DNA of 64,000 nt. Origin: Agrobacterium sp. AGB01 (lineage in GTDB: Bacteria > Pseudomonadota > Alphaproteobacteria > Rhizobiales > Rhizobiaceae). Position 1 is the first letter of the stretch; every line of letters starts with the position of its first letter. Made by a program: the position numbers and the translations under genes. The notes beneath the pieces are model-generated. The model saw only the letters and a list, made by a program, of their open reading frames with translations. It searched no databases and was not told the origin of the DNA. Positions 8,352-46,276 of this stretch are shown in pieces. Where the stretch lies: contig NZ_JACVAB010000003.1 of NCBI RefSeq assembly GCF_014851585.1, forward strand, positions 1 through 64,000. The letters are read 5' to 3'.

Positions 8352-8377
8352 GTTCGGTCCGTCACTCACAATACATG

Positions 8378-9096: not shown

Positions 9097-9133
9097 ATTT
9101 TTGAGCGGTAAGTAGTGAGATGCCTTGCTCGCA

Positions 9134-10015: not shown

Positions 10016-10096
10016 ACTAACCTGCTCTCCCGCTCAACCCTATCACCAGGGTAAAATCCGCTTTCACAGTTTTCAATTTCGCTGCTGCACGATGTT

Positions 10097-10657: not shown

Positions 10658-10664
10658 CTCCAGA

Positions 10665-13655: not shown

Positions 13656-13984
13656 TTCGACACCTCGGAGCGGACTGGCGAGCCGGCAGGAATACCCGGC
13701 AAAGAAGCAAGATCAGGACGTGGCTCGCCCGCACGGTAGGTGGTCAGGAAGCGGTCGCTGACTGTGTCACGCACGGCATTGAAGAAACGGCCACAGCCAT
13801 GCAGATGACGCCATCTTTCAAAATGCGGGCCTTTGGCGTTTTCACGGATGAACAGAAATTCTTCCCACTGCTCGTCCGTCTGTGACGAGGGATCAGCTGG
13901 GCGAATGACATGGGCCTGACCGGCATAGGTGAATTCGGCTTCTGGCAGCGTTTCGTTGCAATAGGGGCAATTGATCAGCAACAT
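13652..13984 (-). CDS. soxD: Sarcosine oxidase, delta subunit
   Basis: 110 residues. The small delta subunit carries a structural zinc ion in characterised heterotetrameric enzymes, and the ligand set is visible: Cys6 and Cys9 in NCPYCNETLPEAEF, a His in ERWRHLHGCGRFFNAVRDT and the Cys in the same segment. The family-typical RPADPSSQTDEQWEEFLFIRENAKGPHFERW stretch is present. It lies 12 bases after soxB and overlaps soxA by four bases. Confidence 0.95.
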   Translation of the reverse strand: MLLINCPYCNETLPEAEFTYAGQAHVIRPADPSSQTDEQWEEFLFIRENAKGPHFERWRHLHGCGRFFNAVRDTVSDRFLTTYRAGEPRPDLASLPGIPAGSPVRSEVSK

Positions 13985-13996
13985 ATCTTAAGCTCC

Positions 13997-15250: not shown

Positions 15251-15304
15251 GAGCGGACCTGCTGGTTAGAACATCTCGTGATGAAAAATCTACGGAGATT
15301 TATT

Positions 15305-15329
15305 TGGACCCAGCTGGACAATTGCGTCC
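15305..15329. promoter_or_regulatory. Candidate operator: phased GGAC half-sites in the soxB/regulator divergent region
   Basis: TGGAC occurs at 15305-15309 and again at 15315-15319, and an inverted copy GTCC is at 15326-15329. The three GGAC/GTCC elements are spaced by 10 bp, so they sit on one face of the helix. They lie just upstream of the regulator start and inside the only shared promoter space. Binding by the adjacent AraC-type protein is inference. Confidence 0.35.
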
Positions 15330-15335
15330 CTTTGC

Positions 15336-16382: not shown

Positions 16383-16475
16383 CACTGACACATGTCCCAA
16401 TAAGACAATTTCGATATTCTGATTTGCGACACAACGTTTTACTCAGGACGGAGAAAACCGCCTGAATTAGATGCT

Positions 16476-16703
16476 TTAGTGGTGGGCTGTCATATCATTG
16501 AGAGCCTTATGGCGGGCCATGGCATCCTGCAGATCTGGCACAGTTCTGTGGCCTTCCCGGAAAAGATTGATGCAAATCTCAGCTGCAATGCTGACATCCG
16601 GATCATCTTTTTTCAACGCGTGATGGCTGCGCCACTCATGTAAAGCAGTATCAATAATTTTTAGTTCAATAGGTCCAAAGGTGGTTTCAAAAAACGATGG
16701 CAT
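16476..16703 (-). CDS. Small conserved alphaproteobacterial protein of unknown function
   Basis: 75 residues from the ATG at 16703, chosen because GGAGGT lies nine bases upstream; the longer frame from 16727 would place that ribosome site inside the gene. The sequence is one compact helical domain: FETTFGPIELKIIDTALHEW, then KKDDPDVSIAAEICINLFREG, then HRTVPDLQDAMARH. I recall similar short proteins with an FGPxEL...EIAAxIxxLFxxG pattern as common unannotated genes in Rhizobiales. The function is unknown. It is isolated between the GlxA-type regulator and the secretion operon. Confidence 0.72.
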   Translation of the reverse strand: MPSFFETTFGPIELKIIDTALHEWRSHHALKKDDPDVSIAAEICINLFREGHRTVPDLQDAMARHKALNDMTAHH

Positions 16704-16831
16704 TACAATGTGACCTCCACAACGCAACGCGATGTAGGAGTCAGGTTTGATAATTCAAGACAGCGAATGGCAAATGTCTAAGATGTGAGTGCGACGTGAA
16801 ATATGACTTGCCAACGGACGAAAACAGGTGA

Positions 16832-18967
16832 TCAAAATCCCGCCTCGCGGAAAAGAATCATCAGCACACGGCGCCAGACACGTTCGGCAAAACTGACGCC
16901 TTCGCCATGCAGCAGCATCACGCCCTGCACCGACCTGGATGGCACAAAACTCGCATCATCAATGGTTGCAACGACTGCATATTGAGCAGAAACCGGAACC
17001 AGCCTGTGCCTTTTTCCTTCGCTTGCAACGTGAACCGCAATGGCACCGTGATGTTGCGAGGACAATTGAGGCACGTCGATTTCACGTGCTCCCGCTTGCG
17101 CTATGCCCGCCAGCGTCACCGGTAATTTTGGCTGCGACACATCATTGGGAATAAACCACCCGGCAGCGTTGGCTGCAAGACGACCGCTGTCGTCACCGGC
17201 AACATAACCGCGCGCCACGGAGCCCTGCCCAGATGAGACAAAAGCAATCTGTTCAGCACGCCCGACCCATTGTCCCGGCAAAATTTCCGGGTTCATGTCA
17301 GTCACCGTACCATCGAAGGGTGCCCTGACGACCAGTGCTGTGCGGCGCTCTTCAAGCCCGCGTTTGCGGGCCAGAGAGCTGCCCAATTCACTTTCGATAA
17401 TGCTTCTCTGCGCAAGATCATCAGCATTGGCACCGATGCGGGCCAGACGGGAGCGGGCAAGCTCAATCTCGACCTCGGCAATCCGCAGTTCCTCATTGAT
17501 CTGTGGTGCATCGATCACGAACAACGTGTCGCCCGCCTTTACGCTCTGTCCGACCGAAATTCCGAGGCTTTCAATACGTCCCGGTTCCTGCGGGAAAAGA
17601 CGCAGGAACTGCTGCGGATAAATCACCGCCGGTGCGGTGATCCTTGTCGAAAGAGGCAAGAAGGCAAGGATCACTGCAATCCCGACAATTGCACCGGTGA
17701 GATATGTACGACGGCTGCGGACAATATCGCTGCGCATGGCCCACCACTCCTTCATTTCCATGAAAACGGGGCGAATGATGAAAAACATGATCTCGACGAC
17801 AAACAACACAATGCCGACGAGTTTGATCGTGAAGTGATAAACCAGCACGGCAATGCCGAGATAAAGAACCAACCGATAGATTGCCGTGGCAATTGCATAC
17901 AACGTCAGCGTGGCATCAAGCCGTGGTGGAAAGGGTTCCGGCGCCTCATGACCCGGTTTGAACAGCAACTCGCGCAACCGCCAGCGCATGTGGCGGAAGC
18001 TGCGTGGTTGCAGATTTTCCACACCAAGCAGATCAGCCAAGATGTAATATCCGTCAAAACGCATGAACGGGTTGAGATTGACGAGCAGGCTCAACACCAC
18101 ACCGGTCGCGGCCAGCACAAACAGCGCACTGCGCAGCGGCCCGTCGGGCACAAAAACCCAGCCAAGCAGCGCATAGGCTGCAACCGTCAATTCCACCAGC
18201 ATGCCAGCGGAATCGATCCGCAGTCGTTGCCAGCGCGACTTCAGTTTCCAGGCATCGCTTACATCGGTGTAAAGCAGCGGCACCATGACCATGAAGGCAA
18301 CACCCATCGTCGGTATACGACACCCGAACCGATGCGCCACATAGGCATGCCCAAGCTCATGCAGGCATTTGATGAAAATCACCGACAGGATAGAGATGAC
18401 GGCGCCTTCAAGCGAGAAAACGAACGGGAATGTGCCGGTAAATGCATCCCACTGGCGCGAAACCAGATAAATGCCGAGCAGCCCTGCAATGGCCGAAACC
18501 CACCAGAAAACACGACTGAACAGAAACTGGACATAGGGCCATGTCGCGCGGATAAACCGCTCCGGCCTGACCAGAGGAATCTTGAAAAACAGGTAGTTGT
18601 GGATGAGCCGCATGAACCACGAATGTCGCGGCTGTGCTATCTGGTGCAAAGCCCTCCATCCGCCACGCGTTGGTTGAACCAGCAGCAAATTATGTTCCAG
18701 CATGCGTGCGATCGTGCCGATATCATCTTCCGACATGCGTTCGATGAAACGGTTGTTCACCGCCTTGAGCAGATTACTCACCGTGTGGCTGATATTCCAA
18801 TGCCGCAGTACCTCGAACATCTCGTAGGTGATGCGAAAAAACCGGTTACGGATCGGATCGAAAATCACCCAAGTCGGCGCCCCGGAATAGCTGGCACCCA
18901 CCCGTACAATCTGCAGATCCTCACGCAGCATCGGTAGCGGTACATCGGTGGGTTGGGCTGTGATCAT
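16832..18967 (-). CDS. PqqD-like / M50 site-2-protease / HlyD fusion membrane protein
   Basis: 711 residues with three parts. Residues about 14-100 resemble PqqD and other peptide-recognition (RRE) domains: two strands with WVIFDPIRNRFFRIT, then helices ending in MLEHNLLLVQ. Residues about 145-425 form a multi-pass membrane domain with both site-2-protease signatures, HELGH at 203-207 and NPFMRFDGYY at 299-308, so zinc ligands and catalytic Glu204 are intact. From about 440 a biotin-lipoyl/HlyD adaptor follows in the periplasm (GRIESLGISVGQSVKAGDTLFVID, coiled coil, LVVRAPFDGTVTDMNPEILPGQWVG). The start overlaps the upstream adaptor gene by four bases. It is last in a four-gene operon with two more HlyD proteins and TolC, divergent from the giant adhesin-like gene. 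I infer a role in recognising, cutting or exporting that protein. No ABC domain is present. Confidence 0.85.
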   Translation of the reverse strand: MITAQPTDVPLPMLREDLQIVRVGASYSGAPTWVIFDPIRNRFFRITYEMFEVLRHWNISHTVSNLLKAVNNRFIERMSEDDIGTIARMLEHNLLLVQPTRGGWRALHQIAQPRHSWFMRLIHNYLFFKIPLVRPERFIRATWPYVQFLFSRVFWWVSAIAGLLGIYLVSRQWDAFTGTFPFVFSLEGAVISILSVIFIKCLHELGHAYVAHRFGCRIPTMGVAFMVMVPLLYTDVSDAWKLKSRWQRLRIDSAGMLVELTVAAYALLGWVFVPDGPLRSALFVLAATGVVLSLLVNLNPFMRFDGYYILADLLGVENLQPRSFRHMRWRLRELLFKPGHEAPEPFPPRLDATLTLYAIATAIYRLVLYLGIAVLVYHFTIKLVGIVLFVVEIMFFIIRPVFMEMKEWWAMRSDIVRSRRTYLTGAIVGIAVILAFLPLSTRITAPAVIYPQQFLRLFPQEPGRIESLGISVGQSVKAGDTLFVIDAPQINEELRIAEVEIELARSRLARIGANADDLAQRSIIESELGSSLARKRGLEERRTALVVRAPFDGTVTDMNPEILPGQWVGRAEQIAFVSSGQGSVARGYVAGDDSGRLAANAAGWFIPNDVSQPKLPVTLAGIAQAGAREIDVPQLSSQHHGAIAVHVASEGKRHRLVPVSAQYAVVATIDDASFVPSRSVQGVMLLHGEGVSFAERVWRRVLMILFREAGF

Positions 18968-20346
18968 AGACCAAACCGCTGGCGGATAACCGAGATCGGT
19001 TTGCGGAAAAGATAATAGGCGAGCGCTACCTTATCACCGCTGATCTGCGCAGTTCCGCGAATGCCAAGTCGCATGCCGGGCTTTTCGCCATCCAGACTTG
19101 CGTAGATGCGATAGGCAAGGACGTCACCCTCGACCATGCGCGCCTCAAATGACACCGCCTCGACCTTCGCATTTGCCGGTCGCAGCGGATCGGAATCGAG
19201 GAACGCCCGAACCTTTGCCCCCTTGGACACTGCAATGGCATCGGCCACTGGCACGTCAATGCGAAGTTGCATCCGGGTTGGATCGGCCACTTCCATGATG
19301 CGCTCACCTGTCGTGACAGGCCGACCCACCCAATCTCTACGGTCGGTATAAATGGCAATACCATCAGCGGGAGAACGAACATCCGATCGCTGCAACATGT
19401 CGCGCGCATAGTTCCGTTTTGCCGCAGCAACGGTTAGTTCACTTCTTGTGATGGCAAGGTCGGCTCGCAATTTCGGATCAGCCACAGCACCTTGCGTCAC
19501 TTGCATCAGCTTGGCTTCAGCAACGCGCACATCCTGTTCGGCGACCGCTAGTTCATTACGCAACATGACATCGGACATTTTGAGCAAAGGTTCGCCCTGC
19601 TGCACGGCTTGGTCAGGATTGACGGCAATGCTCTCAATCACCCCGTCCAGGGGAGCTGCGATAATACGCGGCGAAATTGGCGCCACCTCAACCGGCGCGA
19701 GAATGGTCAGCGGAACCGGATAAAAGCCAAGCGCAGTGACGGTGACCAGAGCCGCAGCAATTAACGGCTTCAATTTCACTCGCCGCTTCAGGCGTCGCTC
19801 TCCCGTCAGTGCTGACCATGCATGAGAATAGGTTGCGGCCAGCCGCCGCAGAATGACCAGATCCTGTTTATTCCATGGGATTTCACGCGTCACCAGCATG
19901 CCGCCGAACACCGTACCGTCGCGAAGCTGAAACGGTAGCCACGCCATGAACCGGCTTGGATATGTCTTATGCTCTTCATCATCGAGCGGGCAAAACGCAG
20001 GCAGCGCAAAATCACAAGGCTCGCCAAGACCTCTTTCGCTGCGAAGATTGCTGATGATTGCTTCAATCCAGCGTATACGTGGTGAGTTGCGGTCGATACC
20101 GCCGACCGAAGTCGCTGCCTTGACTGCCAGGGTTTTCTCAAATCCCGCCAGTACAAACACCTGACGGCATTTGGCGATGTTCACGGTTTCATTGGCAATC
20201 AGAAATCCCAGTTCACCAACGGTTTCCACATGTCGCGCTTCCGCCTCGACACGTAACAGCAATTCATATCCTCGGGAGGCGGCTTGCCCAGCATCGGTTG
20301 AAATGCGTTGCGTCGACGTAACCGTTGTTTTTATCTCGGGTTCCAT
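18964..20346 (-). CDS. HlyD-type membrane adaptor with N-terminal GAF-like cytoplasmic domain
   Basis: 460 residues. The first 185 look like a cytoplasmic GAF-type sensor fold (ETVGELGFLIANETVNIAKC, VFVLAGFEKTLAVKAATSVGG, FMAWLPFQLRDGTVFGGMLV, ending in a long helix before a basic stretch ERRLKRRVKLK). One membrane helix lies at about 192-212, followed by a periplasmic HlyD adaptor (RIIAAPLDGVIESIAVNPDQAVQQGEPLLKM, helical hairpin, DVRSPADGIAIYTDRRDWVGRPVTTGERI, barrel domain). A sensor domain ahead of an adaptor is not the usual HlyD plan and suggests that export is gated by a cytoplasmic signal or partner; that is inference. It lies three bases after the small adaptor gene and overlaps the M50 fusion gene by four. 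Confidence 0.85.
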   Translation of the reverse strand: MEPEIKTTVTSTQRISTDAGQAASRGYELLLRVEAEARHVETVGELGFLIANETVNIAKCRQVFVLAGFEKTLAVKAATSVGGIDRNSPRIRWIEAIISNLRSERGLGEPCDFALPAFCPLDDEEHKTYPSRFMAWLPFQLRDGTVFGGMLVTREIPWNKQDLVILRRLAATYSHAWSALTGERRLKRRVKLKPLIAAALVTVTALGFYPVPLTILAPVEVAPISPRIIAAPLDGVIESIAVNPDQAVQQGEPLLKMSDVMLRNELAVAEQDVRVAEAKLMQVTQGAVADPKLRADLAITRSELTVAAAKRNYARDMLQRSDVRSPADGIAIYTDRRDWVGRPVTTGERIMEVADPTRMQLRIDVPVADAIAVSKGAKVRAFLDSDPLRPANAKVEAVSFEARMVEGDVLAYRIYASLDGEKPGMRLGIRGTAQISGDKVALAYYLFRKPISVIRQRFGL

Positions 20347-20349
20347 CCG

Positions 20350-21102
20350 CTACTCTCCGGGTGTGGGATTGAAGGTGGTTGGCCCACTCATTCCCGGCAA
20401 AATGCCTCTTGCATCATCGGAAAAACGTCCCGTGATCTTCACCGTTTGGCTGACCGGATCAACCGTGGCTGCGATGCGGGAAACTTCTGCCTGTTTTTTC
20501 TCACCAGTTTCATCAATCATGATGGTGAAGGGCGTTCCAGCTTTCAGCCATCGCAACCAGAGAGATGGCAACAGCGCTTCAATTTCCAGCTCACCCTTGC
20601 TGACAATCTGCATCAGCGGCTGGTTGGGTTCGGGTATCTCATGCTCGTGCGCCCGCACGAAGGCAATACGGCCATCATAGGGCGCTCGAATGACGCAGCG
20701 GGCCATCTTGCTTTGGAAGGCCTCCAGTTCCGCCGCCACCTGATCGGTCTTTGCTTTTGAAAGATCGACCTCGAAGGCGCCGACAGCTTTTGAACGCGCC
20801 AAACGGACATTGTTTTCATGCGTAATCGTTTCGGCACGCAGCACAGCCTCAGCGGACTTCACCTGCGCTTCGAGATCACGGCAATCAAAGGCGGCCAGAA
20901 TGTCGCCTTTGGAAAAATCCTGCCCCTCACGAAACGGCAATGAAATAATCGGAAGACTGAGGTCCGTGCCGATCATTGCCTGATTGACGGGTTTGACGAT
21001 GCCACGCAACGTCGTGCCGTCATCTTGCGCATGCAGCGGATAACCTCCCGACGACGCGGCCATGATAGCCAGAAAAAGGCCCGCTACTCTCGATATCTGC
21101 AC
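20350..21102 (-). CDS. Short periplasmic HlyD-type adaptor
   Basis: 250 residues with a cleavable signal peptide (FLAIMAASSGGYPLHAQDD). The rest is a minimal HlyD/RND adaptor: lipoyl half-motif LPFREGQDFSKGDILAAFDC, helical hairpin of about 60 residues, second lipoyl half VIRAPYDGRIAFVRAHEHEIPEPNQPLMQI, then a barrel domain ending in LPGMSGPTTFNPTPGE. No membrane helix remains, so it must attach through partners. It is the second gene of the operon, 35 bases after the TolC lipoprotein and three bases before the GAF-like adaptor. Three adaptor domains from three genes in one operon is unusual and suggests a mixed adaptor ring. Confidence 0.86.
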   Translation of the reverse strand: MQISRVAGLFLAIMAASSGGYPLHAQDDGTTLRGIVKPVNQAMIGTDLSLPIISLPFREGQDFSKGDILAAFDCRDLEAQVKSAEAVLRAETITHENNVRLARSKAVGAFEVDLSKAKTDQVAAELEAFQSKMARCVIRAPYDGRIAFVRAHEHEIPEPNQPLMQIVSKGELEIEALLPSLWLRWLKAGTPFTIMIDETGEKKQAEVSRIAATVDPVSQTVKITGRFSDDARGILPGMSGPTTFNPTPGE

Positions 21103-21137
21103 GTCTCAACTCCCTGACGTCATAATCGGTACTACGC

Positions 21138-22601
21138 TTACTTGGCAGCCACCTCGATCTTTGCCGGGCCGCCACTATGGGTCCACATTGTCCTCAACTG
21201 TGCTGCGATCTGGTCAATGCTGGAACTGGCGGAAAGACCGACCGGGAACGGATCCACACCAAGCGAGGCATAGATATTGGCATATGCATTCTGTAGGTCG
21301 GCATAGGCCATGTCGCGTTTGGCATCGGCAAGGAGGGCGTTCATTTCCTCACGGATGAGAATCTGTTCGCTGGTCTTTTGCGCATTTGTTTCGTCACGCA
21401 CCTGTTTGAGAATACGGTGCGAGACATTCGACAATGCACTCGCCGTCGAATAAGACTTGTTGAGATGGGCATAACGCGTGCGGCTGATATGCACTTGCGT
21501 CATGATTGCCATGGCAACCGAGAGAGCGCGTGCGTCAAGAACCTCTTTTTCGGCGTCAATTCTCTTATTGACCGCTGGCATGCTGACCAGCTTCATCGCG
21601 TTGAAGCTGACCTTGGCGCCCCATGACAGCCAGTCATTCGTGGCTATGAACTCATTTGAGTCATAATTGGCACCTGCATAGACGTTAAAGCCCGGCAGAA
21701 TCTCCAGAAGCGCCGCATTAACTTCTTTTTCGTTAATCCGAGTTCTGTAAGCAACTTCACGCATTTCCGGCCGATTTTCGACAGCTATACGGAACATTTC
21801 CGGCATATTGTCGGGAACAGACAGCTTGGTTCTGGAGCGCTTTGGTACTGCCAGCGTAAACTGGGTTCCCGGCGTAACGTTCATGAGTGCTGCAAGCTGG
21901 CTTTTGGCAACTTTCAGTTCGCCTTCCAGCATTTCCACTTCACGCTTTACCTCGATCAGTTCGCGCTCATAGGTCAGCGCTACCAGTGGTGAGCTTTCAC
22001 CGCTTGAAGAGAGGCCACGTGTGTCGCGCAATGCGCGTGCAACGCGGCCTTCAAGCGCCCGCATACGACCGACTAGGCTCTGATAGCTGACTGCGCGCCA
22101 ATAGGCGGTGCGTACATCCTCGATCACCTTGTTGACGATGCGCCGTTTCATTTCTTCCTGGATCAAAGCCTGATCTGCGGCCTGTTTGGCGCGCACATAA
22201 GACAATCCGAAATCAAGGATATTCCACGAAAACGTCAAATCAGCTGATCTAATGTTCTCGTCGCGCGTCGAAGGCGTTGAGGCATCAGCCTCGTTACGGC
22301 CCGCATAACCCACCCCGGCCACAACCTTTGGCAAGGCGCTGTAGCTGACAAGATCGGCTTCACGCGTTTTCAGCGCCGCCTGCATGATCTCGACTTTGGT
22401 ATCGAGATTGTATTTGAGCGCCCGCGCCATCGCGTCATAAAGGTCAATAGAACCGGTAATCGGCTCCTGATTGGCTGTTGCCCTGGTTAGCTTTTCATGC
22501 CCGAAAACTGCATTGGCCTCAGGCGTCAGCGGTTCTGTGTGCACAGTACAACTGGCAGCAAGCAGAACGACAGGCACAGTCCAGATGAATGGAAATTTCA
22601 C
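21138..22601 (-). CDS. TolC-family outer-membrane lipoprotein of the giant-protein secretion operon
   Basis: 487 residues from the GTG at 22601, chosen because GAGGTGA lies four bases upstream. This start gives a clean lipoprotein signal, MKFPFIWTVPVVLLAASC, with Cys18 as the lipidation site; the longer frame from 22670 has no ribosome site and would bury the signal. The mature protein has the TolC plan: GSIDLYDAMARALKYNLD, a coiled coil, LTFSWNILDFGLSYVRAKQAADQAL, and a second half with RPEMREVAYRTRINEKEVNAALLEILPGFNVYAG. It is the first gene of a tight four-gene operon (TolC, HlyD, GAF-HlyD, PqqD/M50/HlyD) and is divergent from the 23-kb gene it probably serves. Confidence 0.88.
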   Translation of the reverse strand: MKFPFIWTVPVVLLAASCTVHTEPLTPEANAVFGHEKLTRATANQEPITGSIDLYDAMARALKYNLDTKVEIMQAALKTREADLVSYSALPKVVAGVGYAGRNEADASTPSTRDENIRSADLTFSWNILDFGLSYVRAKQAADQALIQEEMKRRIVNKVIEDVRTAYWRAVSYQSLVGRMRALEGRVARALRDTRGLSSSGESSPLVALTYERELIEVKREVEMLEGELKVAKSQLAALMNVTPGTQFTLAVPKRSRTKLSVPDNMPEMFRIAVENRPEMREVAYRTRINEKEVNAALLEILPGFNVYAGANYDSNEFIATNDWLSWGAKVSFNAMKLVSMPAVNKRIDAEKEVLDARALSVAMAIMTQVHISRTRYAHLNKSYSTASALSNVSHRILKQVRDETNAQKTSEQILIREEMNALLADAKRDMAYADLQNAYANIYASLGVDPFPVGLSASSSIDQIAAQLRTMWTHSGGPAKIEVAAK

Positions 22602-23017
22602 TGCGTCACCTCGCAAGTCAACTCGACGGAACCCTTGCGAAAAGCAATACAGGGGTACGCGCGGTTTCAACGCTTCAAACAGACGAAACGCCTTGTGCGA
22701 AACCTAGGGGTGGGCAAATGATTGACGGATATGGTTAACAGGTACTTAAATTAGCAGTCCCTGTAATTACAGGCAAAATCTGCGCGCCTGGAACTGATGT
22801 ATTGTTTCTTGACAAATATCAGGAAAACCCCTGCGCTATTGGGTTTATGTGTATATTCTTACTTGCTAAAAATTGGCGGCAAAAATTAAGATTTTGTAAA
22901 CCCACCCAACGTCTATTTTGGAACTCGTTAATCTGACAGCCGTTGCCCGATTCACTGTCATAAGATCGGGCACCCATCCGCCCGGTTTGTCTGGGGTCTG
23001 GAAGCGGGAGACATGTA
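22602..23017. promoter_or_regulatory. Divergent control region between the secretion operon and the giant gene
   Basis: 416 bp without a supported gene. It must hold the promoters of both units. Seen directly: a 14-bp perfect palindrome (separate entry), a TTGACA at 22809-22814 on the plus strand without a well-spaced -10 partner, and an AT-rich stretch from 22840 to 22915. The giant gene has GGGAG seven bases before its ATG. The distance from the TTGACA to the ATG implies a leader of about 170 nt if that promoter is used. Confidence 0.5.
22760..22773. promoter_or_regulatory. Perfect 14-bp palindrome, candidate operator
   Basis: CCTGTAATTACAGG is a perfect palindrome placed between the two divergent promoters. 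Its size and symmetry suit a dimeric repressor or activator that controls the secretion operon and its giant substrate together. The cognate regulator is not identifiable from the window. Confidence 0.45.
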
Positions 23018-26000
23018 ATGAACGAGCATTTCACTCGTCGGCAGCAGTCGTCCAAAGATAACAAGAAGAAACCCGCCTCGAAAAAAGGCAAGCAGGACAG
23101 GCTGAGTTCCATGCTTATGGAGCTTGAACAGCGCATTGCATTTGACGCAGCAGGCGCTGTTACAATCGACCAGGCTCAAGACCAGCACCCCGCCCAAGAT
23201 AGTGACGGAACCGATCATCAACAGAGTTCTGATGCCACGGATAGCGATCAGCATGCGCTGGAAAAGGCGCTCGCAGGTTCGACCGAAGCCGCGATCACTG
23301 AGATACCGCCGATGGAAGCGGCGTCCAAACAGGTAGTTTTCGTCGACAGTTCCGTAACCCTGCTGCAGGGAATAGACGGCGACTTCGAGGTTGTGGTTCT
23401 CGAAGCTGGCCGCGATGGCGTCAAACAGCTGGCAGAAGCACTCTCCCACATGAAGGATGTGGAAACAGTCCACATCATTTCCCATGGTGACGAAGGTCGA
23501 CTTTATCTCGGCTCAGCGGAACTGACGATTGAATCGATGGCTGGCGATTATGCAGACGAGTTGCAAAGCCTGAAGTCCTATCTGACCGATGACGCCGATA
23601 TCCTGATTTATGGTTGCGATTTCGCACGTGGTGAGCTCGGTCAGAATGCTGCCCGCATGATGGGCTACCTGACCGGTGCCGATATTGCCGCATCGACGGA
23701 TGCGACGGGCAATGCCGCACTCGGTGGCGACTGGGATCTCGAATATCGCACCGGTGAAATCACCGCGAGCGTGTTGCCCACCATGGACGCGCAGCGCGAA
23801 TATGCTGAACTGCTGAACGTGCAGGCCAGTGTTGGTAATGGTGCACTTCTCGTTGTCTCCGGTCGCACACTCTACAGCGTCGATGTTGTGACCGGCAAAG
23901 CGACAGCCATCACGACGGCACCTGCCACGATTGGCGGAGTCAGCTTGAGCGACACGCTGAATTCGCTGGCGGTCGATCAGGCCAATGGCCTCATCTATTA
24001 CACCGACAGTGCCTCCGCAAACGCCAACCGCGCTTTGTTCGCCTATGACTTCATCAACAATACCCACATCCTGATCGACAATGATCTGACCAATAACGGC
24101 ACCGGCCTGAGCATCGTGGTGGGTGAACGAGGTGTTGGTAGCGGTGCTGCAACCTTCTATAATGGTTCACTTTATCTTGGCATCGAGAACATCAACGCCA
24201 ATGGTGACGACCAGATCTGGCGGATCACCTTCAGCGGCAACGGCCGCACCATAGCCTCGGCATCAACCTTCGGCGCAGCGATCACCACCAGCAATGACTG
24301 GGGTGATTTTGCCATTGATACGACCAACAATTATCTGCTCAGCCTCAATGGTGCAGCAGCGACCATCACGCGTTACAACCTCGCAACCGGTGCGATTGTC
24401 GGTTCCTACGCCAACCCCAGTGGCACCACTCTGGTTCAGGGTGGCGGCGACATCAATGGCAATACCTATCTGGTCGGCGCATCGCTGCAGCAAATCAACG
24501 TCACGACCGGTGCGGCTATTGGCTCTGCCATAGCAATCACCACCAATGGCACAACGCCAATCGGCACCATTTCCGATGGTGCACGCTGGGTGCCGCCGAC
24601 CGGCACGATTGGTGATCAGGTCTATGATGACAACAACCTCAACGGCACATTCGACAGCGGTGACGTTGGCATTGCCAATGTTACCGTACAACTGATCGAT
24701 GACGTCAATGGCAACGGTGTCGCGGATGCCGGTGAACGTGTTCTTGCCACCGACACCACGGGCGCTGACGGAAGATACCTGTTCACCGGGGTTCTGCCCG
24801 GCCAATATGTCGTGCGTGTTACCGATACGGCTGGTGTACTCGGCGGGGCTGTTGCAACCAAAGCAATCACCCAATCCGCAGCACTGACATTGATTGGCGG
24901 CGCCAACCTTGCTGCCGATTTCGGTTATGATGCACAGGCGCCTGTTGTCGACCTCAATTCCGGCACGACGCCAACGCAGATCATCACCAACGGTGGCACG
25001 CCCGGCACGACCGGCTGGACGGTGACCGGAACTGCCGGCGGCATTGCCAATGACGGCTATGCCTGGACCCTTAATGGCGGTACCGGCACCCTGACGCAGG
25101 CCAACATTACCGGTTGGCGCGATGGATTGGCGCCTTCCGGTGCCGCGCAGCTGACATTTGATGTTGGCTGGAGCAACAATCTCCTTCTTGGGATTTCCAA
25201 TGACAACAACACGCCAGCGACACTGGATGTCACCATTGGCGGCGTGCTCTACGCCCGAGTAACCACAGGCACATTGAATGGCACGCCAAATACGGCGACC
25301 ATCACTTACTTTAATGGTGCGAGCGGTTCACCGTCCACGGTTGCCGCCTCCGCCGCCGGAACCACAGCCTGGACCCGCACCGGTGTTACCATCAACCTGC
25401 CATCCACTGTCGCGGCAACCGGTGATCTGGTCTTCAGTTACTCCGCCGCCGGCGGTTTGCTGACCCCAAGCACGGACGACATTTTCATCGACAATGTCAG
25501 CGCGTTCAGAAACGTCGATACGGTTGCTGGCGTCAATTACACCACGACCTATACTGAAAATGGCGCCGGTGTTTCGATTGCATCCACCACAGCTGGCGTC
25601 CTTGCCGATGTGCGTGACTTCGACAGCACCACCATGCGCTCGGCCACCATCGTTCTGACCAATGCGCAGGCGGGTGATCTCCTGAGTGTCGGCACCCTGC
25701 CCTCCGGCATTACCGGGTCTATCGATACAACGGTTGCTGGCCAGATCACCGTCAATCTGACGGGAACTGCAACAAAGGCAAACTATGCCGCGGCAATCCG
25801 TGCCATCACCTTTTCCAACAGCGGCGATAATCCTGGTACAACTGCGCGCGTCATCAATGTCACGGTCAATGATGGTGGCCTGTCATCAGCCGTTGCCGTG
25901 TCAACAATTAACGTCATTGCAGTTAATGACGCCCCCGTAAACACGTTACCAGCGTCCGGCTGGACGACGAATGAGGATACCAGTTTCGCTCTGTCTGGCC

Positions 26001-44000: not shown

Positions 44001-46276
44001 GTACACTGACCATCAATCCCGATGGCAGCTACAGCTACCGCCCTGCCAGCAACTACAATGGCAATGACAGCTTCACCTACACAGTGAGTGACGGTGTCGC
44101 GACAAGCACCTATATGATCTCGATCACCATTACGGCGGTCAATGATGCGCCTGTCGGTTCCGATCTGCAGATTTTGGTGGCCAATGGCGCAACAGCAACC
44201 GGCAGTCTGCCGCCAGCGATAGATCCGGAAGGTTCCGATGTTACCTATGCGCTGGATGGTTTCACGCCTGGCGCCACGGTGATCGTCAACGAGGATGGCA
44301 CCTATAGCTACACGCCAGCGCCGGGCTTTAGCGGCACCGATACCTTTACCTACTCGGTGAGCGATGGCTCGATCTCCTCAGTCTACACGGTCACGGTGAC
44401 CGTTGGTGCAGCCAACCAGCCACCTGTCGCAGTCGATGCCACAGTGGCGACCAACGAAGACCAGCCGCTATCAGGCAGATTGCCTATCGCAATCGACCCC
44501 GAAGGTGGCACCGTCACCTATTCGCTCGGCCGTGATGCGCTGAACGGTTCGGTTATCGTCAACCGGGACGGCACCTACACCTACACACCAAACCCGAACT
44601 TCTACGGCACTGATAGCTTCACCTATATTGCAAGCGACGGCACGGCATCGTCCGTTCGCACGATCACCATCAATGTCGCGGAAGTGAATGATGCACCGGT
44701 CGGCTCGGACACCAGCATCGCAGTCACGGAAGATATTCCAGCCAGCGGCATGCTGCCGCGCGCCATTGATCCAGAGGGCCAAACCGTTATCTATGGCCTT
44801 GGCGATATCAGACCAGCGCACGGATCCGTCATCATCAATGCCGATGGCAGCTATACCTACACGCCAAATGCAAACTTCAACGGCACGGATAGCTTCACCT
44901 ACACCGTGTCCGATGGCGATGCGACCAACACCTACACGGTCAGTGTCACCGTCAGTGCGGTAAATGATGCGCCGATCGGTCGTGACGATCTCGTTTCCGT
45001 CAATGAAAACGCAATCTACAATGGCCGGCTGCCAACCGCGACCGATCCGGATGGCGACACTGTATTCTACGGCCTTGGTAGCCAGGCAAACAACGGTTTT
45101 GTCACCATCAATCCCGATGGCACCTACACCTACACTCCAAATGAAAACTTCAATGGCACCGACACATTTACCTACACGGTGAGCGATGGTCAGCTGGAAC
45201 GGACATACACCGTTACAGTCCTGGTCAATACGCCCAATGAACCACCGGTTTCCTCTGATACCTCCATCTCGGTTACCGAGGGAACGGTCATATCGGGCAA
45301 CCTGCCTGCGGCCACCGATCCTGAAGGCCAGCCAATTACCTACGGTCTTGGTTCCGGTCCACAGCACGGCACGGTTACGATCAACGCGGATGGTACCTAC
45401 AGCTATACACCGGCCAGTGGTTACAACGGCGCCGACAGCTTTACCTTCACGATTAGCGATGGCGTCAATACCGTAACCTATACCGTGACGGTGAACGTCC
45501 TTGAGGCGGGAGGACCACGTCCACCGCTCGAAGTTGATCCGCCTGCCCCAATTTCGGCAGAGCCAACCGACCCATGGCAGCCGCCATCTGTGTCGGAAAG
45601 CATCCCGTCTGGTTCTGCCCTGACAGATTCCATCATGGAGGACTTGAATGGCATTGCTGATCTGACAGCGCAGGGTCCGATCCTAAATGTCGTCAATTCG
45701 ATCCGCTCTCTCAACGGTATCGGATCGCTGCCAGACCAGGGCGCCATCTTGCACGCGGTCCGCCAGATCGGCGACTGGCAGGCAAGTGACCGGATCATTG
45801 ATGAAATCGCCGCCGGTTTCTTCAAGGGCGGTTCCAACATCCATCTTTCAGGAGAAGGTAACGAAAGCACCTGGTTCCAGGTCGATACAATGTTCTACAA
45901 GGATTATCTCTACATCATGCCGTCCTCGGCCGGGAACGTGGAAAATGCCAATTTTGGCGTGACGCTTGCCGATGGCAAGCCATTGCCGGACTGGCTGAAA
46001 CCGACTCGTCAGGGCCTTGTTATCGGACGTCCGCCAGCAGGTCTGCCATCGATCGATTTGCGCATCTATGGTAACTCAGCAGATGGTGTCATCTCCGATA
46101 CCATGCGCATCGACCTGCACACCGGCACGATCCTCGATCACGTCAGTGACCGGCGAACAGACCTCGGCCCGGCGATGTTCTCTGACCATCTGTTTGCCGC
46201 GGCAAACCTGCATGGCGACGACATCTCGGTGTTGAGCCAGGCGCTCGAGAGCTGGAACGAGCTGCCACAACGGTAA
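23018..46276 (+). CDS. Giant DUF4347 / SdrD-B / cadherin-VCBS repeat surface protein, 7,752 residues
   Basis: One uninterrupted frame of 23.3 kb. Residues 1-30 are very basic with no Sec signal, followed by LEQRIAFDAA at 36-45, related to the LEPR-XLL type leader of giant exoproteins. DUF4347 covers about 106-265, with His156 in IISHGDEG and Cys200 in IYGCDFA. About 270-525 is a propeller-like segment, and about 528-635 an SdrD/Cna-type B domain (GDQVYDDNNLNGTFDSGD). From about 830 to 7,495 there are only beta-sandwich repeats of about 90-135 residues, in at least four classes: VNDAPVNTLP..EDT; DLD..TGY..TENG; NDSDPDGDPLTIT with SFTYTISDG; and PIPDR..DG..GLP.GL. The abundant Asp clusters suit calcium binding, giving a stiff fibre. 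The last 255 residues are non-repetitive. There are no RTX nonapeptides or LPXTG. Probable role: cell-surface adhesin or biofilm matrix protein exported by the divergent operon. Few cysteines were noticed (Cys200 and two in repeats). Confidence 0.88.
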   Translation: MNEHFTRRQQSSKDNKKKPASKKGKQDRLSSMLMELEQRIAFDAAGAVTIDQAQDQHPAQDSDGTDHQQSSDATDSDQHALEKALAGSTEAAITEIPPMEAASKQVVFVDSSVTLLQGIDGDFEVVVLEAGRDGVKQLAEALSHMKDVETVHIISHGDEGRLYLGSAELTIESMAGDYADELQSLKSYLTDDADILIYGCDFARGELGQNAARMMGYLTGADIAASTDATGNAALGGDWDLEYRTGEITASVLPTMDAQREYAELLNVQASVGNGALLVVSGRTLYSVDVVTGKATAITTAPATIGGVSLSDTLNSLAVDQANGLIYYTDSASANANRALFAYDFINNTHILIDNDLTNNGTGLSIVVGERGVGSGAATFYNGSLYLGIENINANGDDQIWRITFSGNGRTIASASTFGAAITTSNDWGDFAIDTTNNYLLSLNGAAATITRYNLATGAIVGSYANPSGTTLVQGGGDINGNTYLVGASLQQINVTTGAAIGSAIAITTNGTTPIGTISDGARWVPPTGTIGDQVYDDNNLNGTFDSGDVGIANVTVQLIDDVNGNGVADAGERVLATDTTGADGRYLFTGVLPGQYVVRVTDTAGVLGGAVATKAITQSAALTLIGGANLAADFGYDAQAPVVDLNSGTTPTQIITNGGTPGTTGWTVTGTAGGIANDGYAWTLNGGTGTLTQANITGWRDGLAPSGAAQLTFDVGWSNNLLLGISNDNNTPATLDVTIGGVLYARVTTGTLNGTPNTATITYFNGASGSPSTVAASAAGTTAWTRTGVTINLPSTVAATGDLVFSYSAAGGLLTPSTDDIFIDNVSAFRNVDTVAGVNYTTTYTENGAGVSIASTTAGVLADVRDFDSTTMRSATIVLTNAQAGDLLSVGTLPSGITGSIDTTVAGQITVNLTGTATKANYAAAIRAITFSNSGDNPGTTARVINVTVNDGGLSSAVAVSTINVIAVNDAPVNTLPASGWTTNEDTSFALSGLSIADVDAGTGNMTVTLNVATGAITAISGGSVTVTGSGTTTITLTGTLANINAYLASAAAPVYVPVADANGAVTLTMTTNDNGNTGTGGALTDIDVRTITIIPVNDAPVLDLDGSSAGTGYSIGYTENGSGVAIAANNNSVIDVDNANMASATIVITNGQAGDILAATGTLPTGITASYNATTFTLTLTGSATKAAYQAALAQILYSSSSDNPTIGGTATGRTISVTVNDGALASNTAITTVAVTAVNDAPVNTLPASGWTTNEDTNVALSGLSILDLDAVNGTMTVTLGVSSGTITATSGCSVTVSGSGTATLTLSGTLTNINAYLASASAPIYVPVPDANGAITLTMTTNDNGNTGTGGALTDIDIRTITIIPVNDPPILDLDTGSTGTGYSTTYTEKGASVAITGASALITDVDNTNMSSLTVVITNGQAGDLLALSSTIPGITASYNAATFTLTLTGSATKADYQTALQAVRYSTTSDNPSTIGRTINVVTNDGAANSNTAVATVNVIAVNDAPVNTLPTGPVTLQEDVLTAITGLSVTDADSTNLTVTLTVTNGILSPSTIAGTVTGVGTNTVTISGTQAQVNSVLASLRYQGNPDYYGSDTLTMVTSDGSLTDTDTLAISVTPVADIVDDTVTTNEDTPITFNVITGTNGASADNFENPNRAITSVTQPPAGQGSVTFSADGTITYTPTANFNGQTTFTYTVTSGGVTEVATVTVNVAAVNDAPVNTLPASGWTTNEDTNVALTGLSVADVDAGTGAITVQLSVTSGTLTATSGNGVVISGSGSTITLTGTLASINAYLASSAAPIYVPVANANGSVTLTMTTNDGGNTGSGGPLTDIDTRPITINAVNDAPVNTLPASYTIPEDTPLGLTDIQISDVDAGNGTMTVTLGVNSGILTASAAGGVTVSGSGTGTIILSGTLANINAFLASASRPSFTPVADFNGNVTLTMTTNDGGNTGAGGALTDVDTSIITVTPVNDAPILDLDASGAGTGFTTSYTENGAGIAIVDTDVLIVDVDNTNMASATIIITNAVAGDTLSIAGTLPSGITFSYNAATATLTLTGFATKADYQTALQQIRYSSTSDDPGSTARIINISVNDGTVNSNVALATVSVTPVNDPPVNTLPGSYTMLEDGTLSLSGLSVLDPDAGTSTMTVTLSVNSGSIAATSAGGVTVSGSGTGTITLTGTLSSINAYLQAGASQPVYSPVADFNGTVTLTMTSSDGSLTDTDSRTITVTPVVDIFDDAVTTNEDTAATIDVNANDNFENAAHQITAINGTSIVANGVVTVANGSVRLNANGTLTFIPTANYNGQTSFTYTVTSGGVTETANVVVTVTPVNDAPVNTVPGAQTTAEDSPLAIGGVNVSDVDGDTLTTTVSVTNGSLSVTAGGGSTISNNGTGAVTIAGTAAQINAALAGLSYTPTADYNGAAQLTVVTSDGTLTDTDSIAITVTPVADIANDVVTTNEDTAITIDVNANDTFENSGHTITAINGTAVAVNGTVTVANGTARLNANGTITFTPTANYNGQTSFTYTVTSGGVTETATVTVNVTAVNDAPVNTVPGTQTIAEDGTITFSVAGGNAISVADVDNGTLTVTLTVTNGTFSLSGISGLTFTAGDGTSDATMTFSGTTAAINAALAGATYVPTRDYNGSAQITLTTSDGSLSDVDTINVTITAVADIANDSVSTDEDMPVTIAVLANDTFDNPGRAITAINGTAITTGGTVAVSNGTVQLTSGGQLIFTPTLDYNGVTTFTYTVTSGGVTETATVTVAVASVNTPPINTIPSTYTTLEDTALGLTGLSIADADAGNGIVTVTLSVNSGILTASNTGGVTVQNSGSGEIVLSGTITAINANLSGASRPSFTPVANSVAAVTLTMTTNDMGNTGGPALTDIDTSTISITPVNDAPSGGDKTITLLEDGSYTFAAADFGFTDPNDSPANTLSAVIISTLPSNGVLSLGGVPVTAGQVISAANIGSLTFTPTANANGAALASFTFQVRDNGGTANGGVDTDPTPNTITFNVTAVNDAPVNTLPGSFATNEDIALTLTGLAISDVDAGNSNVTVTLSVGSGTLSAATGGSVTVTGSGTGTITLTGTVTNINTFLAGTSRPLYTPVANANGSVTLTMVTNDNGNTGIGGPLSDTDTATIFIATVNDAPVGADAAISLNEDTVFSGTLPVATDVDGDTLSYSAGSLAPAHGVVTINSNGTYIYTPAANFNGTDTFRYRVSDGTVSVEYTVTVTVNAVNDAPVAINDTAQTLANSNVSTNVLTNDTDVDGDTLIVSQVNGVVGNVGMAVAGSNGGTFTIGANGAAIFNPGSAFVDLAAGQTRTSSVTYQVSDGNGGTATATFTVTVTGINDAPVSTPIANQSSNDTQVISLNVSGNFSDPDAGDSLTFTATGLPPGLTISAAGVITGTINRSASVNGPYSVTITATDRAGAQATRSFTWAVANPAPIAGDDNFATTENAAISGSVFTNDSDPDGDPISVSAVGGNSAAVGAAVNGSNGGTFIINADGTYAFNPGTSFDNLAAGQTRVTSVTYTISDGQGGTATATVTVTVTGENDAPIAGNDSFTTNEDTPVIINVLANDSDIDGGTLTITAINDTVVSAGNSVNVTGGRVTLNANGTLTFTPTADYNGTPSFTYTVSDGQGGSTTATVNGTVNAVQDPPVAVDDTFTSLEDTAVTINVRANDYDVDGDPLTITQINGLAIVTGGSVAVTGGTVTLNTNGTLTFNPTANYNGNPSFTYTISDGQGGTATATVNGTVTPVQDPPIATGDTFTTLEDTPTTIAVLANDSDPDGDPLTIIQINGTAISSGATVAVTGGTITLNANGTLTFNPTANYNGSTSFTYTISDGQGGTATATVNGTITPVNDAPVAVDDTFTTLEDTATTINVRGNDSDVDGDALTITQINGTAIVTGATVSVTGGTVTLNANGTLTFTPTPNYNGNPSFTYTISDGNGGTATATVNGTVTPINDAPVAVNDTFTTPEDTAITFDVRSNDSDADGDALTVTAINGTAITTGQSVAITGGTVRLDADGRLSFTPNANYHGPINFTYTVSDGTAFANATVSGTVTPVNDAPTSSDISISTQEDTPFNGTLVATDVDGDAVTFSLGTTTPAHGTVTINANGTYIYTPSANYNGTDRFSFVVTDPSGARNEYTVTITVTDVNDNPVGTPIPNRSANDGAVVNFDVSTFFSDVDGDTLTYSQTGLPSGLSISAAGLITGTIDRNASQGVNNGVYTVTISVSDGNGGTAQQTFSIAVSNPAPIAVNDVATTLEDTAIIINVLANDSDPDGDPLSVISATAAHGTVTILADGEISYLPSANYNGTDIITYTISDGNGGTATATVTVTITPVNDDPVGTPIADRTRNDGATDSLDLSAFFSDPEGGVLTYQIDPDFPLPPGLLLSGSVISGQISSDASGPTGEKSYRIRVIASDPDGGSTVVEFTYTVLNIPPIARDDTVTTNEDTSVDINVLANDSDPDGDLTEVIRVNNVVLQPNGASVATTNGFVQLIENPDGSQFLRFTPSPNYNGRESFSYSISDGNGGVSTATVTVTVVAVNDPPTPTQPIPDRVRADGQSFTYNVSDFFTDPDGDPLSFTISGLPVGLQYNPATGLISGVIDKNASQGGPNNNGVYIISIIANDGTTSIPAQTFELTVTNPAPTANNDVISTNEDTPVVIEPLANDSDPDGDPLTIVTARAGVGTVTINPNGTLTYVPALNFNGVDTISYTISDGNGGVSTATVRVTVNAVNDDPTSSPIPDQYDSDSQFVDYDVSHYFSDVDGDTLTFTATNLPPGLTMDAAGRITGRLAPNASDTGPYQAVITASDGNGGTTTRTVTWIVTNLPPQAFHDTLIVDENTSGGGNVLDNDLDPDGDDLTVDQVEGSSANVGVAVAGSNGGTFTINADGTYTFDPGTDFADMSEGDAPRFTSITYRVTDGTNVDTATITVTVNGVNNDPTANIIPDYTRADGQSLTDHPLHLGAFFQDIDANDTLTFSQTGLPDTLTMATDGTITGILSSDASQGGPNGDGIYTVVVTANDGKGGTISQTFTFTATNPAPIAENDTVVTGEDQPVTFNPITGAGTTSGDDGIDFDPDGDTIIIDPAFPPVAGNGTVVVNPNGTLTYTPNANYNGSDTIVYRITDGQGGFSTGIITVFVDAENDPPIASPIADMSRNDGEAISFNVSGNFVDPEGQPLSYTATGLPPGLSINATTGIISGTIDADASGPTGLRDYVVRVTATDPDGGSASVDFTYTIKNVAPNAENDQVTTDEDTPVEIDILANDTDPDGDTDTVILVEGVNLTVGGPAVMTSNGSVQLVLNASGKEVLRFTPNPNFNGTESFTYTISDRNGGSDTATVTVTVNPVNDPPVATPIPDRTQVDSSDFSLDVRPYFTDVDGQVLTITVSGLPPELTFDPATGLITGRLDADASKDSPYTITVRASDGIAQASSTFTLTVTNPAPNAANDVVNTLEDTVANFNPITGAGTLSGADGIDSDPDGDPLTITQINGQSITVGQTVIVAGGSVRLNDALGNLTFTPTLNFNGTVGFTYRISDGNGGFSDASVTLNIAAVNDTPIIDLNGPGSSGSDNSVTFTEGDGPVRLVSPDAIVSDVENGIVSLDVSLSGFLNSGTEIIHLNGSADIIFGTASSGMIAFGGTTFVYQYDGANSVHFENAAGASVPMPNAAASALLRALQYENRNANLTAGDRTLTISITDNGGETSAASVTVSVGAINNPPVAVDDTAITGENTAITNGTSVLANDSDAEGATLTVIAVGSGNAGQPITGSAGGTFVINADGTYSFNPNTDFDDLQEGQTRTTSVSYTISDGAGGTATATLTITVTGENDAPSGGSFTLNAIEDQTSSGFLPVTDVDDDNLIYAVLAQPANGTVTIGVDGRYTFVPKANFSGPDSFTYTVNDGKTTVTFTVTVNVANVEDPPTGEIPNQSFNDADRVTLDISQFFTDADGDTLSFNEIGLPAGLEMSAEGVITGILTRNASQVDGGVYVITVTVSDGQQEITRDFTITVSNPAPIARNDAITTEENTPASGSVFADNGFGADSDPDGDVITVSAVNGNAAGVGTSVTGSAGGSFNIAANGNYTFTPSTDFDNLAAGQTRTTSVTYTISDGEGGTSTATFTVTVTGTNDAPVGRGDTISVVEDTPYNGTLPVAFDAEGQTLTYAVGTGPTNGRLVVNIDGTYTYTPNPNFAGGDSFIYTVSDGTATVQYTVVVNVCAINDAPTLGNDSFTVDEDGTVTVDVLANDSDADGDTLTITAIDGKPIVQGGSVTVTGGTIRLNANGTLTFTGAANFNGPLTFTYTVSDGTTTATATVTGQVNAINDSPIAVDDVAQTDENTPIGGNVIIGSDSDPDGDTLTVISVGTGPNGVGATLTGSNGGSFVILADGSYRFDPGAAFQDLQAGESRATSISYTISDGNGGTATATLTITVTGVNDAPVAPALPPRANLDGTVINLDLGSLFSDVDGDTLTYTIGGLPTGLIYNQATAVITGTISPSASGPTGTRAFSVTVTANDGNGGTVQRNFIWTVTNPIPQAQDDAFSINEGQTLTGNVLANNGNGADTDDDVLTVSVVNNPANGTLTLNSDGSFTYQPNAFFNGSDSFTYRVADGNSGFDTATVTIQIAAVNDAPVVNNDTFAIDEDGSVTIDVLANDSDPDNDPLTITAINGQAITAGNTVSVTGGTVTLNANGTLTFTATPNYNGSPSFSYTVTDGTVSRDGTVSGTVRAINDAPVNTLPGSFTGTEDTNLPLTGIAVTDVDAGNAPITVTLTVNSGALLGVSANGVTVTGNGFPVLTLTGTVNNINAWLSGPNAPVYRPVTNSSASVTLTMTTNDGGNTGAGGALTATSTATIIIDPVNDAPVAVDQLVTTPEDTPVAGTIVASDVDGDALTYTISTQPANGRVTIDAMGRYLYTPATNFNGTDVFVVTVSDGHGGTATATVTVSVAPINDAPVGSDGAVTVTEDIVFNGQLPEAIDPEGQAVLYAVGTPPMHGTLTINPDGSYSYRPASNYNGNDSFTYTVSDGVATSTYMISITITAVNDAPVGSDLQILVANGATATGSLPPAIDPEGSDVTYALDGFTPGATVIVNEDGTYSYTPAPGFSGTDTFTYSVSDGSISSVYTVTVTVGAANQPPVAVDATVATNEDQPLSGRLPIAIDPEGGTVTYSLGRDALNGSVIVNRDGTYTYTPNPNFYGTDSFTYIASDGTASSVRTITINVAEVNDAPVGSDTSIAVTEDIPASGMLPRAIDPEGQTVIYGLGDIRPAHGSVIINADGSYTYTPNANFNGTDSFTYTVSDGDATNTYTVSVTVSAVNDAPIGRDDLVSVNENAIYNGRLPTATDPDGDTVFYGLGSQANNGFVTINPDGTYTYTPNENFNGTDTFTYTVSDGQLERTYTVTVLVNTPNEPPVSSDTSISVTEGTVISGNLPAATDPEGQPITYGLGSGPQHGTVTINADGTYSYTPASGYNGADSFTFTISDGVNTVTYTVTVNVLEAGGPRPPLEVDPPAPISAEPTDPWQPPSVSESIPSGSALTDSIMEDLNGIADLTAQGPILNVVNSIRSLNGIGSLPDQGAILHAVRQIGDWQASDRIIDEIAAGFFKGGSNIHLSGEGNESTWFQVDTMFYKDYLYIMPSSAGNVENANFGVTLADGKPLPDWLKPTRQGLVIGRPPAGLPSIDLRIYGNSADGVISDTMRIDLHTGTILDHVSDRRTDLGPAMFSDHLFAAANLHGDDISVLSQALESWNELPQR
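25934..27550 (+). repeat. Two-domain super-repeat of about 0.8 kb in the giant gene
   Basis: The phrase NDAPVNTLPASGWTTNEDT opens a block whose second half starts DLD..GTGYS..YTE. The first block runs 816 bp (25934-26749) and the next 801 bp (26750-27550), each made of two different sandwich domains. Further copies of the first domain follow around 28.2 kb and 28.6 kb. This shows duplication of domain pairs as units. Confidence 0.7.
33689..34924 (+). repeat. Four exact-register 309-bp tandem units inside the giant gene
   Basis: Units begin at 33689, 33998, 34307 and 34616 and each is exactly 309 bp (103 codons) with no insertions or deletions; the next, at 34925, is 306 bp. Each encodes P-x-A-x-D-D-T-F-T..ED..., then NDSD-DGD-LTIT, GGTVTLNANGTLTF, and SFTYTISDGQGGTATATVNGTV. 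Conservation at third codon positions differs between units, so they are diverged but recent relative to the rest of the gene. Confidence 0.85.

Follow-up and report, generated by a model that had tools for sequence, protein, structure and literature searches.

A four-gene operon as probable exporter of leader-marked giant repeat proteins, without an ABC, RND or MFS pump of its own

Giant surface proteins are common in bacteria, and for many of them no export route is known to us. Substrates of type I secretion systems are signalled by a C-terminal sequence, according to PMC5018854, and tripartite pumps contain an inner-membrane transporter of the RND, MFS or ABC family, as stated in PMC8277102. 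Here, we describe a four-gene operon and a divergent gene for a protein of 7,752 amino acids in a 64,000-nucleotide stretch of the Agrobacterium sp. AGB01 genome (contig NZ_JACVAB010000003.1, positions 1 to 64,000), which as a whole is called the window. The operon is probably dedicated to the export of giant extracellular repeat proteins that carry an N-terminal leader, consisting of a basic stretch and then LExR[ILM]xFD[AG]A, and it encodes neither an ABC nor an RND or MFS pump. What is new here is that this leader is matched to the operon. A search of the open-access literature, with subscription journals and preprints outside its scope, found no description of the operon or of a link between the leader and an M50 protease, and the distribution reported below suggests a widespread export route that is apparently undescribed.

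A sequence-only reading of this DNA had proposed a tight four-gene operon divergent from a single 23-kb gene, encoding a TolC lipoprotein, HlyD adaptors and an M50 fusion. All coordinates were confirmed on the window sequence: the four genes form a run on the minus strand at 16832-22670, and the giant gene lies on the plus strand at 23018-46276 as a reading frame without internal stop. Along the operon, the OEP and short HlyD genes are 35 nt apart, the short HlyD and GAF-HlyD genes 3 nt, and the GAF-HlyD and M50-HlyD genes overlap by 4 nt. P0004 (21138-22601, minus strand; longest open reading frame (ORF) to 22670) is a TolC/OEP-type outer-membrane lipoprotein (OEP, 2.1e-30). From the sequence, its GTG start at 22601, which gives a lipoprotein start ending in the lipobox LAASC and has a ribosome-binding-like GAGGTGA, is favoured over the listed TTG at 22670; the divergent intergenic region between this start and the giant gene spans 22602-23017. 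P0003 (20350-21102, minus strand) is a short periplasmic HlyD adaptor with a signal-like N-terminal segment (HlyD_3, 3.9e-17; RND_mfp above its cut-off), and P0002 (18964-20346, minus strand) combines a GAF-like N-terminal domain, one hydrophobic segment (about residues 195-213) and an HlyD adaptor (HlyD_3, 4.8e-19). P0001 (16832-18967, minus strand; 711 amino acids), the inner-membrane component, consists of a PqqD/RRE-like domain, an M50 intramembrane metalloprotease (Peptidase_M50, 4e-8) and a C-terminal MacA/HlyD-like periplasmic adaptor. The latter (residues 439-692; 16892-17653) was assigned by an HlyD_3 match, a structure model and a fold search that took in residues 439-694 only. Thus, OEP, Peptidase_M50 and, in all three adaptors, HlyD_3 were matched in Pfam/NCBIfam scans, and the same scans revealed no ABC, RND or MFS gene in the four-gene set and the giant, in agreement with the reported lack of an ABC ATPase. 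Hydropathy indicated about eight hydrophobic segments in P0001 and one in P0002, which fits the proposal that only the M50 fusion and a single-pass adaptor are integral to the inner membrane.

The giant is a surface-type protein in which a DUF4347 domain (residues 106-266; 23333-23815) is followed by Big_9/Cadherin/tandem-95 arrays, as assigned with Pfam and NCBIfam, and it contains 0.43% lysine. In line with the proposed absence of an RTX C-terminus, neither HemolysinCabind nor a type I target model was found in the two pieces scanned (E up to 0.01), a scan that a plain C-terminal signal without a model could escape. A by-eye comparison of the C-terminal ends of the giants gave no motif common to all.

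To relate the operon to the giants, genomes with a P0001 relative or M50-HlyD gene (carriers) were compared with those without. In a class sample of 190 genomes, P0001 relatives were present in 10, DUF4347 in 13 and both in 7, and the latter seven held the top DUF4347 scores (157-185 bits, against at most 137.5 elsewhere). In 6/6 genomes that had operon and giant on the same contig, the two were no more than about 5 kb apart; in the remaining genome, G070, they are on different contigs. Three class carriers (G050, G109 and G147) were without DUF4347. In a phylum sample of 398 genomes, the M50-HlyD profile was found in 90 (E up to 1e-30), DUF4347 in 94 and LEPR-XLL, a curated leader model (NF012209), in 53. 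DUF4347 was present in 75 of the 90 carriers, LEPR-XLL in 51 and either of them in 86, and 51 of the 53 LEPR-XLL genomes had the M50-HlyD gene. Fisher tests for the overlap with carriers, uncorrected for relatedness, gave 3e-47 for DUF4347, 6e-37 for LEPR-XLL and 2e-61 for either. Co-occurrence of the M50/HlyD fusion with DUF4347 giants, the survey that had been advised beforehand, was therefore found in both samples. Four phylum carriers had neither DUF4347 nor LEPR-XLL: G253, G313 (partial match only), G391 and G483, the last with a leader-bearing gene of 2,107 residues inside the operon. Adjacency in the phylum sample was counted on LEPR-XLL ORFs; 35 of the 77 ORFs of at least 300 residues share a contig with an M50 gene, 28 of these within 15 kb. 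Also, the pairwise distances of exporter and DUF4347 sequences were correlated (r 0.83, 0/999 permutations, 39 loci). Chance adjacency of operon and giant was rejected in view of the co-occurrence, the leader match described below and this correlation. In operon genomes, LEPR-XLL open frames reached about 15,000 to 19,427 codons (G257:C115, G215:C1, G209:C1), with several per genome, and one exporter may therefore serve several giants.

The leader was examined in 41 aligned giant N-termini. Its core residues L36, E37, R39, F42, D43 and A45 (window numbering) are invariant in 41/41, and in the window's giant they belong to LEQRIAFDAAG (residues 36-46; 23123-23155, plus strand), the proposed export signal. 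The stretch ahead of the core is basic, with a median net charge of +5, and an alanine-rich run follows the core, with a short hydrophobic patch before this run. In 80 named loci, the best 80 of at least 576 P0001 relatives from a profile scan of genome contigs, the expression LE.R..FD[AG]A was found in 40/40 DUF4347 giants versus 2 of 6,661 other ORFs of at least 60 codons, and both exceptions are giants. A looser form, LE.R..[FLYM][DS][AGS], preceded DUF4347 in 8/8 ORFs of carrier genomes and in 0/18 of non-carriers (class sample), and was present in 5/5 plasmid giants. For the phylum sample, 8 of the 19 non-carriers were inspected, each by a single DUF4347 ORF. Seven of these further genes were without the leader, and the eighth, in G377, has the leader and an adjacent OEP gene; because this genome is 57% complete, its M50 gene may be absent from the assembly rather than from the genome. 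Independent of our own expressions, the LEPR-XLL model (24 positions), which was curated by others, matched 15/41 leaders weakly (best 0.007). The window's own leader gave no match (17-bit cut-off; 0 matches in its genome); matches were obtained for relatives next to operons of this type. These counts show that it is the N-terminal leader, not DUF4347, that tracks the operon. DUF4347 was rejected as the linking feature because non-carrier genomes hold DUF4347 proteins that lack the leader; the earlier framing around DUF4347 thus stood insofar as DUF4347 giants do co-occur with the operon. The claim that the giant has no Sec signal was only partly upheld. By hydropathy (12-residue window), the leader, with a median of 1.26 and a maximum of 2.04, is not like a usual Sec signal, compared with a median of 2.40 in 70 short adaptors, though the ranges overlap.

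The order OEP-HlyD-GAF/HlyD-M50/HlyD was complete in 63/80 named loci, which span Rhizobiales, Hyphomicrobium, Azospirillum, Nitrospira, Sphingomonadales, Pseudomonas, Halomonas and others. The remaining 17 had a gene that was absent from the stretch, split, duplicated or displaced, which is explained in part by contig ends, and L113 and L126 are permuted in gene order. Of note, in L113, L126 and L243 the giant or the GAF-HlyD/M50 pair is displaced within the operon. A DUF4347 giant was contained in 39 of the stretches and a leader-bearing giant without a DUF4347 match in 3; in 20, a long ORF extended past the end of the stretch, and in the other 18 none of these was present. In the Nitrospira locus L091, tandem leader-bearing DUF4347 genes (13355-15640 and 16215-20519) lie beside one exporter. 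No further gene shared by the unit was found, the largest neighbour family being present in 6/80 loci, and ABC-ATPase-like ORFs, recognized by their signature, occurred in 7/80 loci, none inside the operon. In the window, nine neighbouring ORFs were scanned and proved unrelated (sarcosine oxidase-type, FAD oxidoreductase, formyl transferase, AraC/DJ-1 regulator, hydrolase, EamA, phosphate transporter, chemoreceptor and one without a match). Among the matches listed, the nearest named relative of P0001 is from Rhizobium sp. RM (90% identity). Of the alignments used, A2 (DUF4347 domains) comprised the window and all 40 sequences, A3 the window and 73 of 80 M50 sequences (L056, L057, L058, L059, L096, L109 and L110 omitted by hand), A4 the window and 55/78, A5 the window and 49/80, and A6 the window and 40/78, hand-thinned.

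A plasmid collection yielded 65 records with a P0001 relative, 53 of which cover at least 80% of P0001. In 5/5 annotated records that were opened, the giant and the same four genes are side by side, and the set is without an ABC gene. These cassettes are from Variovorax (CP063167, with a 48.7-kb giant gene on a 2.5-Mb replicon), E. coli, Azospirillum, Kosakonia and Burkholderia anthina. The E. coli plasmid NZ_CP081687 (L131) holds a complete giant (13.4-kb gene) and exporter cassette at 2337-22088 flanked by insertion sequences. The E. coli M50/HlyD gene was found at 99% or higher in 24 of 5,426 complete E. coli genomes, in 22 over at least 80% of the length, and its locations comprise 21 on plasmids and 4 on chromosomes. 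In the Variovorax record (L130), type II secretion genes, including gspG, gspK, gspD, the ATPase gene gspE and gspF, follow directly after the exporter genes on the same strand (17285-25915); no such set is beside the exporter in the other four annotated records. Viral contigs gave no P0001 relative with P0001 as the sole query, which reaches close relatives only. That the operon and the giant form one system, as was inferred beforehand, is strongly supported by the co-occurrence, the adjacency, the leader match and these five-gene cassettes, and at the level of genes the operon and the leader-bearing giants are shown to be one genetic unit.

The putative functions of P0001 were considered domain by domain. 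PqqD/RRE domains bind leader peptides and have a winged-helix fold with three strands and three helices, and the PqqD/RRE-like part of P0001 (residues 12-95; 18683-18934, minus strand) is the candidate reader of the giants' leader. Pfam PqqD matched it weakly in 4/50 homologues (best 0.0059), hhalign gave an E-value of 0.0013 but a probability of 18%, and a PDB profile search returned nothing meaningful. A confident structure model has strands at 19-25, 31-37 and 42-46 and three to four helices across 48-92, so that the PqqD-like label fits in predicted topology and is weak in profile matches. The zinc motif of the M50 domain, HELGH (residues 203-207; 18347-18361), is conserved, with H203, E204, H207 and D305 invariant in 74/74 sequences (alignment A3), D305 presumably being the third zinc ligand. 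The M50 domain thus has the conserved residues of an active site-2 protease, and activity is predicted. Following its final helix, P0001 ends in REAGF (residues 707-711), and RESGF is found in the other seven aligned relatives, a conservation that hints at a contact site. The GAF-like label of P0002 also held in part: GAF was matched in 10/41 homologues of the N-terminal region (best 4.5e-7) and not in the window's own protein. By inference, this domain would be located in the cytoplasm.

The DUF4347 domain of the window's giant is a clear match (Pfam 4.6e-48; PF14252, 163.5 bits versus a gathering score of 24.6). In the giants, C200 and G157 are conserved in 41/41 and H156, directly before the invariant glycine, in 37/41; the invariant C200 is one of just three cysteines in the 7,752 residues. 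The A2 profile matched PDB 9qpe_G (1.8e-4), which is from the type VI effector Tce1 (PA0256), termed a putative cysteine protease with a His/Cys dyad in PMC13323088, and PA0256 is a DUF4347 protein according to PMC8262886. DUF4347 therefore looks like a cysteine peptidase of the Tce1 kind, with H156 and C200 as putative catalytic residues.

How might such an exporter work? In the proposed mechanism, the PqqD/RRE-like domain of P0001 would bind the leader in the cytoplasm, and the M50 domain would either cut the leader or serve as a membrane gate. The fused adaptor would then hand the chain to a periplasmic tunnel of three HlyD-type adaptors, docked on the TolC-like lipoprotein. Since P0001 would read, process or gate, and feed the substrate, it would replace the peptidase-ABC of type I secretion, minus the ATPase. 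The chain would pass unfolded, for which the scarcity of cysteines in the window's giant can be cited, and folding of the cadherin/Ig-like repeats outside, which we take to be of the Ca2+-binding type, may pull it through as a ratchet. The inner-membrane pore could be P0001 itself or Sec on loan, and the energy options compatible with this scheme are Sec combined with an outer-membrane step, the proton motive force and the outside folding ratchet. Once outside, the N-terminus may be trimmed or released by the putative DUF4347 peptidase. A more far-reaching view is that Pseudomonadota and Nitrospira have a separate secretion class, in which an RRE-like domain reads the leader, the intramembrane protease to which this domain is fused forms the inner-membrane gate of a TolC-type duct, and proteins of many thousand residues exit without a dedicated ATPase. 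We offer this view tentatively, and consider it rather doubtful at present.

A different division of labour would be a two-step route, in which Sec carries the giant over the inner membrane by means of an unusual leader and the operon only processes the protein and takes over at the outer membrane. Sec is universal, and neither an ATPase nor a known pore was found in the operon, by Pfam/NCBIfam scans and by signature in the 80 loci, which weighs in favour of this route, as do the basic start of the leader and the short hydrophobic patch ahead of its alanine-rich run. However, most leaders are lower in hydropathy than the short adaptors from the same loci, the E, R and D of the core are invariant, and the cytoplasmic-side PqqD-like and GAF-like domains would be left without an obvious task, so that we regard this route as unlikely, though worth serious thought. 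The leader-to-operon match across genomes, and the five-gene cassettes in different hosts, make it very improbable that the operon exports other cargo, such as a modified peptide by analogy with M50 relatives from peptide clusters, and that the giant is a habitual neighbour. The point in favour of such cargo is that the NCBIfam model closest to P0001 is the daptide intramembrane metalloprotease (2.2e-49, residues 38-398), which scored far under its cut-off (168.6 versus 300 bits).

The operon could also be paired with an ABC transporter encoded elsewhere, and would then be an ordinary type I system with scattered genes. The window's genome has 16 ABC_membrane matches, 15 above the cut-off. Four of the 16 are neighbours of classical type I HlyD adaptor genes (at C17:42278, C17:447047, C18:398452 and C19:531086), which are on other contigs or, at their nearest, over 330 kb away from the operon. 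Two of the 10 class carriers, G070 (100% complete) and G109 (99%), contain no type I HlyD above the cut-off. Classification of six of their seven ABC_membrane proteins, all but G070's fourth, placed each of the six closest to MsbA models and under the type I cut-offs. Contig C24 of G070, however, has a weak HlyD match (67 bits, cut-off 208.65) about 1.5 kb from an MsbA-like ABC gene, and G109 showed no giant; therefore, these two genomes argue only mildly against a borrowed ABC transporter. In favour of the latter is also a published Vibrio giant with an N-terminal LEPR-XLL and a C-terminal RTX (PMC10868602), and therefore a LEPR leader alone may not mean the route proposed here and the leader family may not be confined to it. 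Considering that the plasmid cassettes hold the other parts but no ABC gene, and that neighbour families are common to at most 6/80 loci, a borrowed transporter seems quite unlikely.

Apart from the lack of an ATPase or known pore, the type I adaptors of the window's genome, the G070 pair and the Vibrio giant, several other findings weigh against the operon being a dedicated exporter. Kinship among genomes inflates the co-occurrence statistics, and the leader counts rest on expressions that we defined ourselves. No leader giant was found in the regions fetched for carriers G253 and G391, and 42/77 LEPR giants are on contigs without an M50 gene. In L079, L082, L112, L123 and L129, the OEP gene is absent from a stretch that is not cut there. 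The 18 of 80 loci without a giant include 15 stretches under 15 kb and three of a full 22 kb, two of which (L078 and L107) have an unjudged long ORF overlapping the OEP gene. Finally, the PqqD assignment, judged by sequence, is weak.

Notwithstanding these points, the match of a short leader with a four-gene operon across a phylum opens the export question to gene-removal tests. If the operon exports without its own ATPase, this would mean that tripartite ducts can do without a pump of the ABC, RND or MFS type and that an intramembrane protease was recruited as an export component. In addition, the leader permits the prediction of substrates from sequence, including those on plasmids of Enterobacteriaceae.

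Compared with known systems, P0001 shares its M50 domain with the RRE and M50 proteases of ribosomally synthesized and post-translationally modified peptide clusters (daptide HExxH, YydH/LiaK), but it is below both curated cut-offs, is fused to a periplasmic adaptor, and is encoded beside a TolC gene with a giant protein as substrate. The leader of the giants may resemble the motif of the Planctomycete cell-surface signal PF07595 (Planc_extracel). PF07595 is likewise an N-terminal surface-protein motif, according to PMC8567305, but the leaders were unmatched by it at E up to 1. LEPR-XLL proteins are closer to the giants, given the 15/41 leaders matched and the 51/53 genomes that carry the operon, whereas the window's leader is unmatched and one published Vibrio LEPR-XLL giant ends in RTX (PMC10868602); no export system attached to the LEPR-XLL model was present in anything found. 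MacAB-TolC and other tripartite pumps differ in that the unit is without a MacB-like, RND or MFS partner. The type I systems for giant adhesins (LapBCE, SiiCDF and HlyBD-TolC) have, like the operon, a TolC-type duct, HlyD-type adaptors, a giant repeat substrate and gene adjacency. In contrast to these systems, the operon has an M50 fusion in the place of the ABC ATPase, no RTX repeats were found in the giant, and the proposed signal is at the N-terminus instead of the C-terminus; moreover, none of the three adaptors reached the type_I_hlyD cut-off, nor did P0004 reach that of type_I_sec_TolC. With no ABC component, the operon does not qualify as a type I system on its gene content, although it may still work like one.

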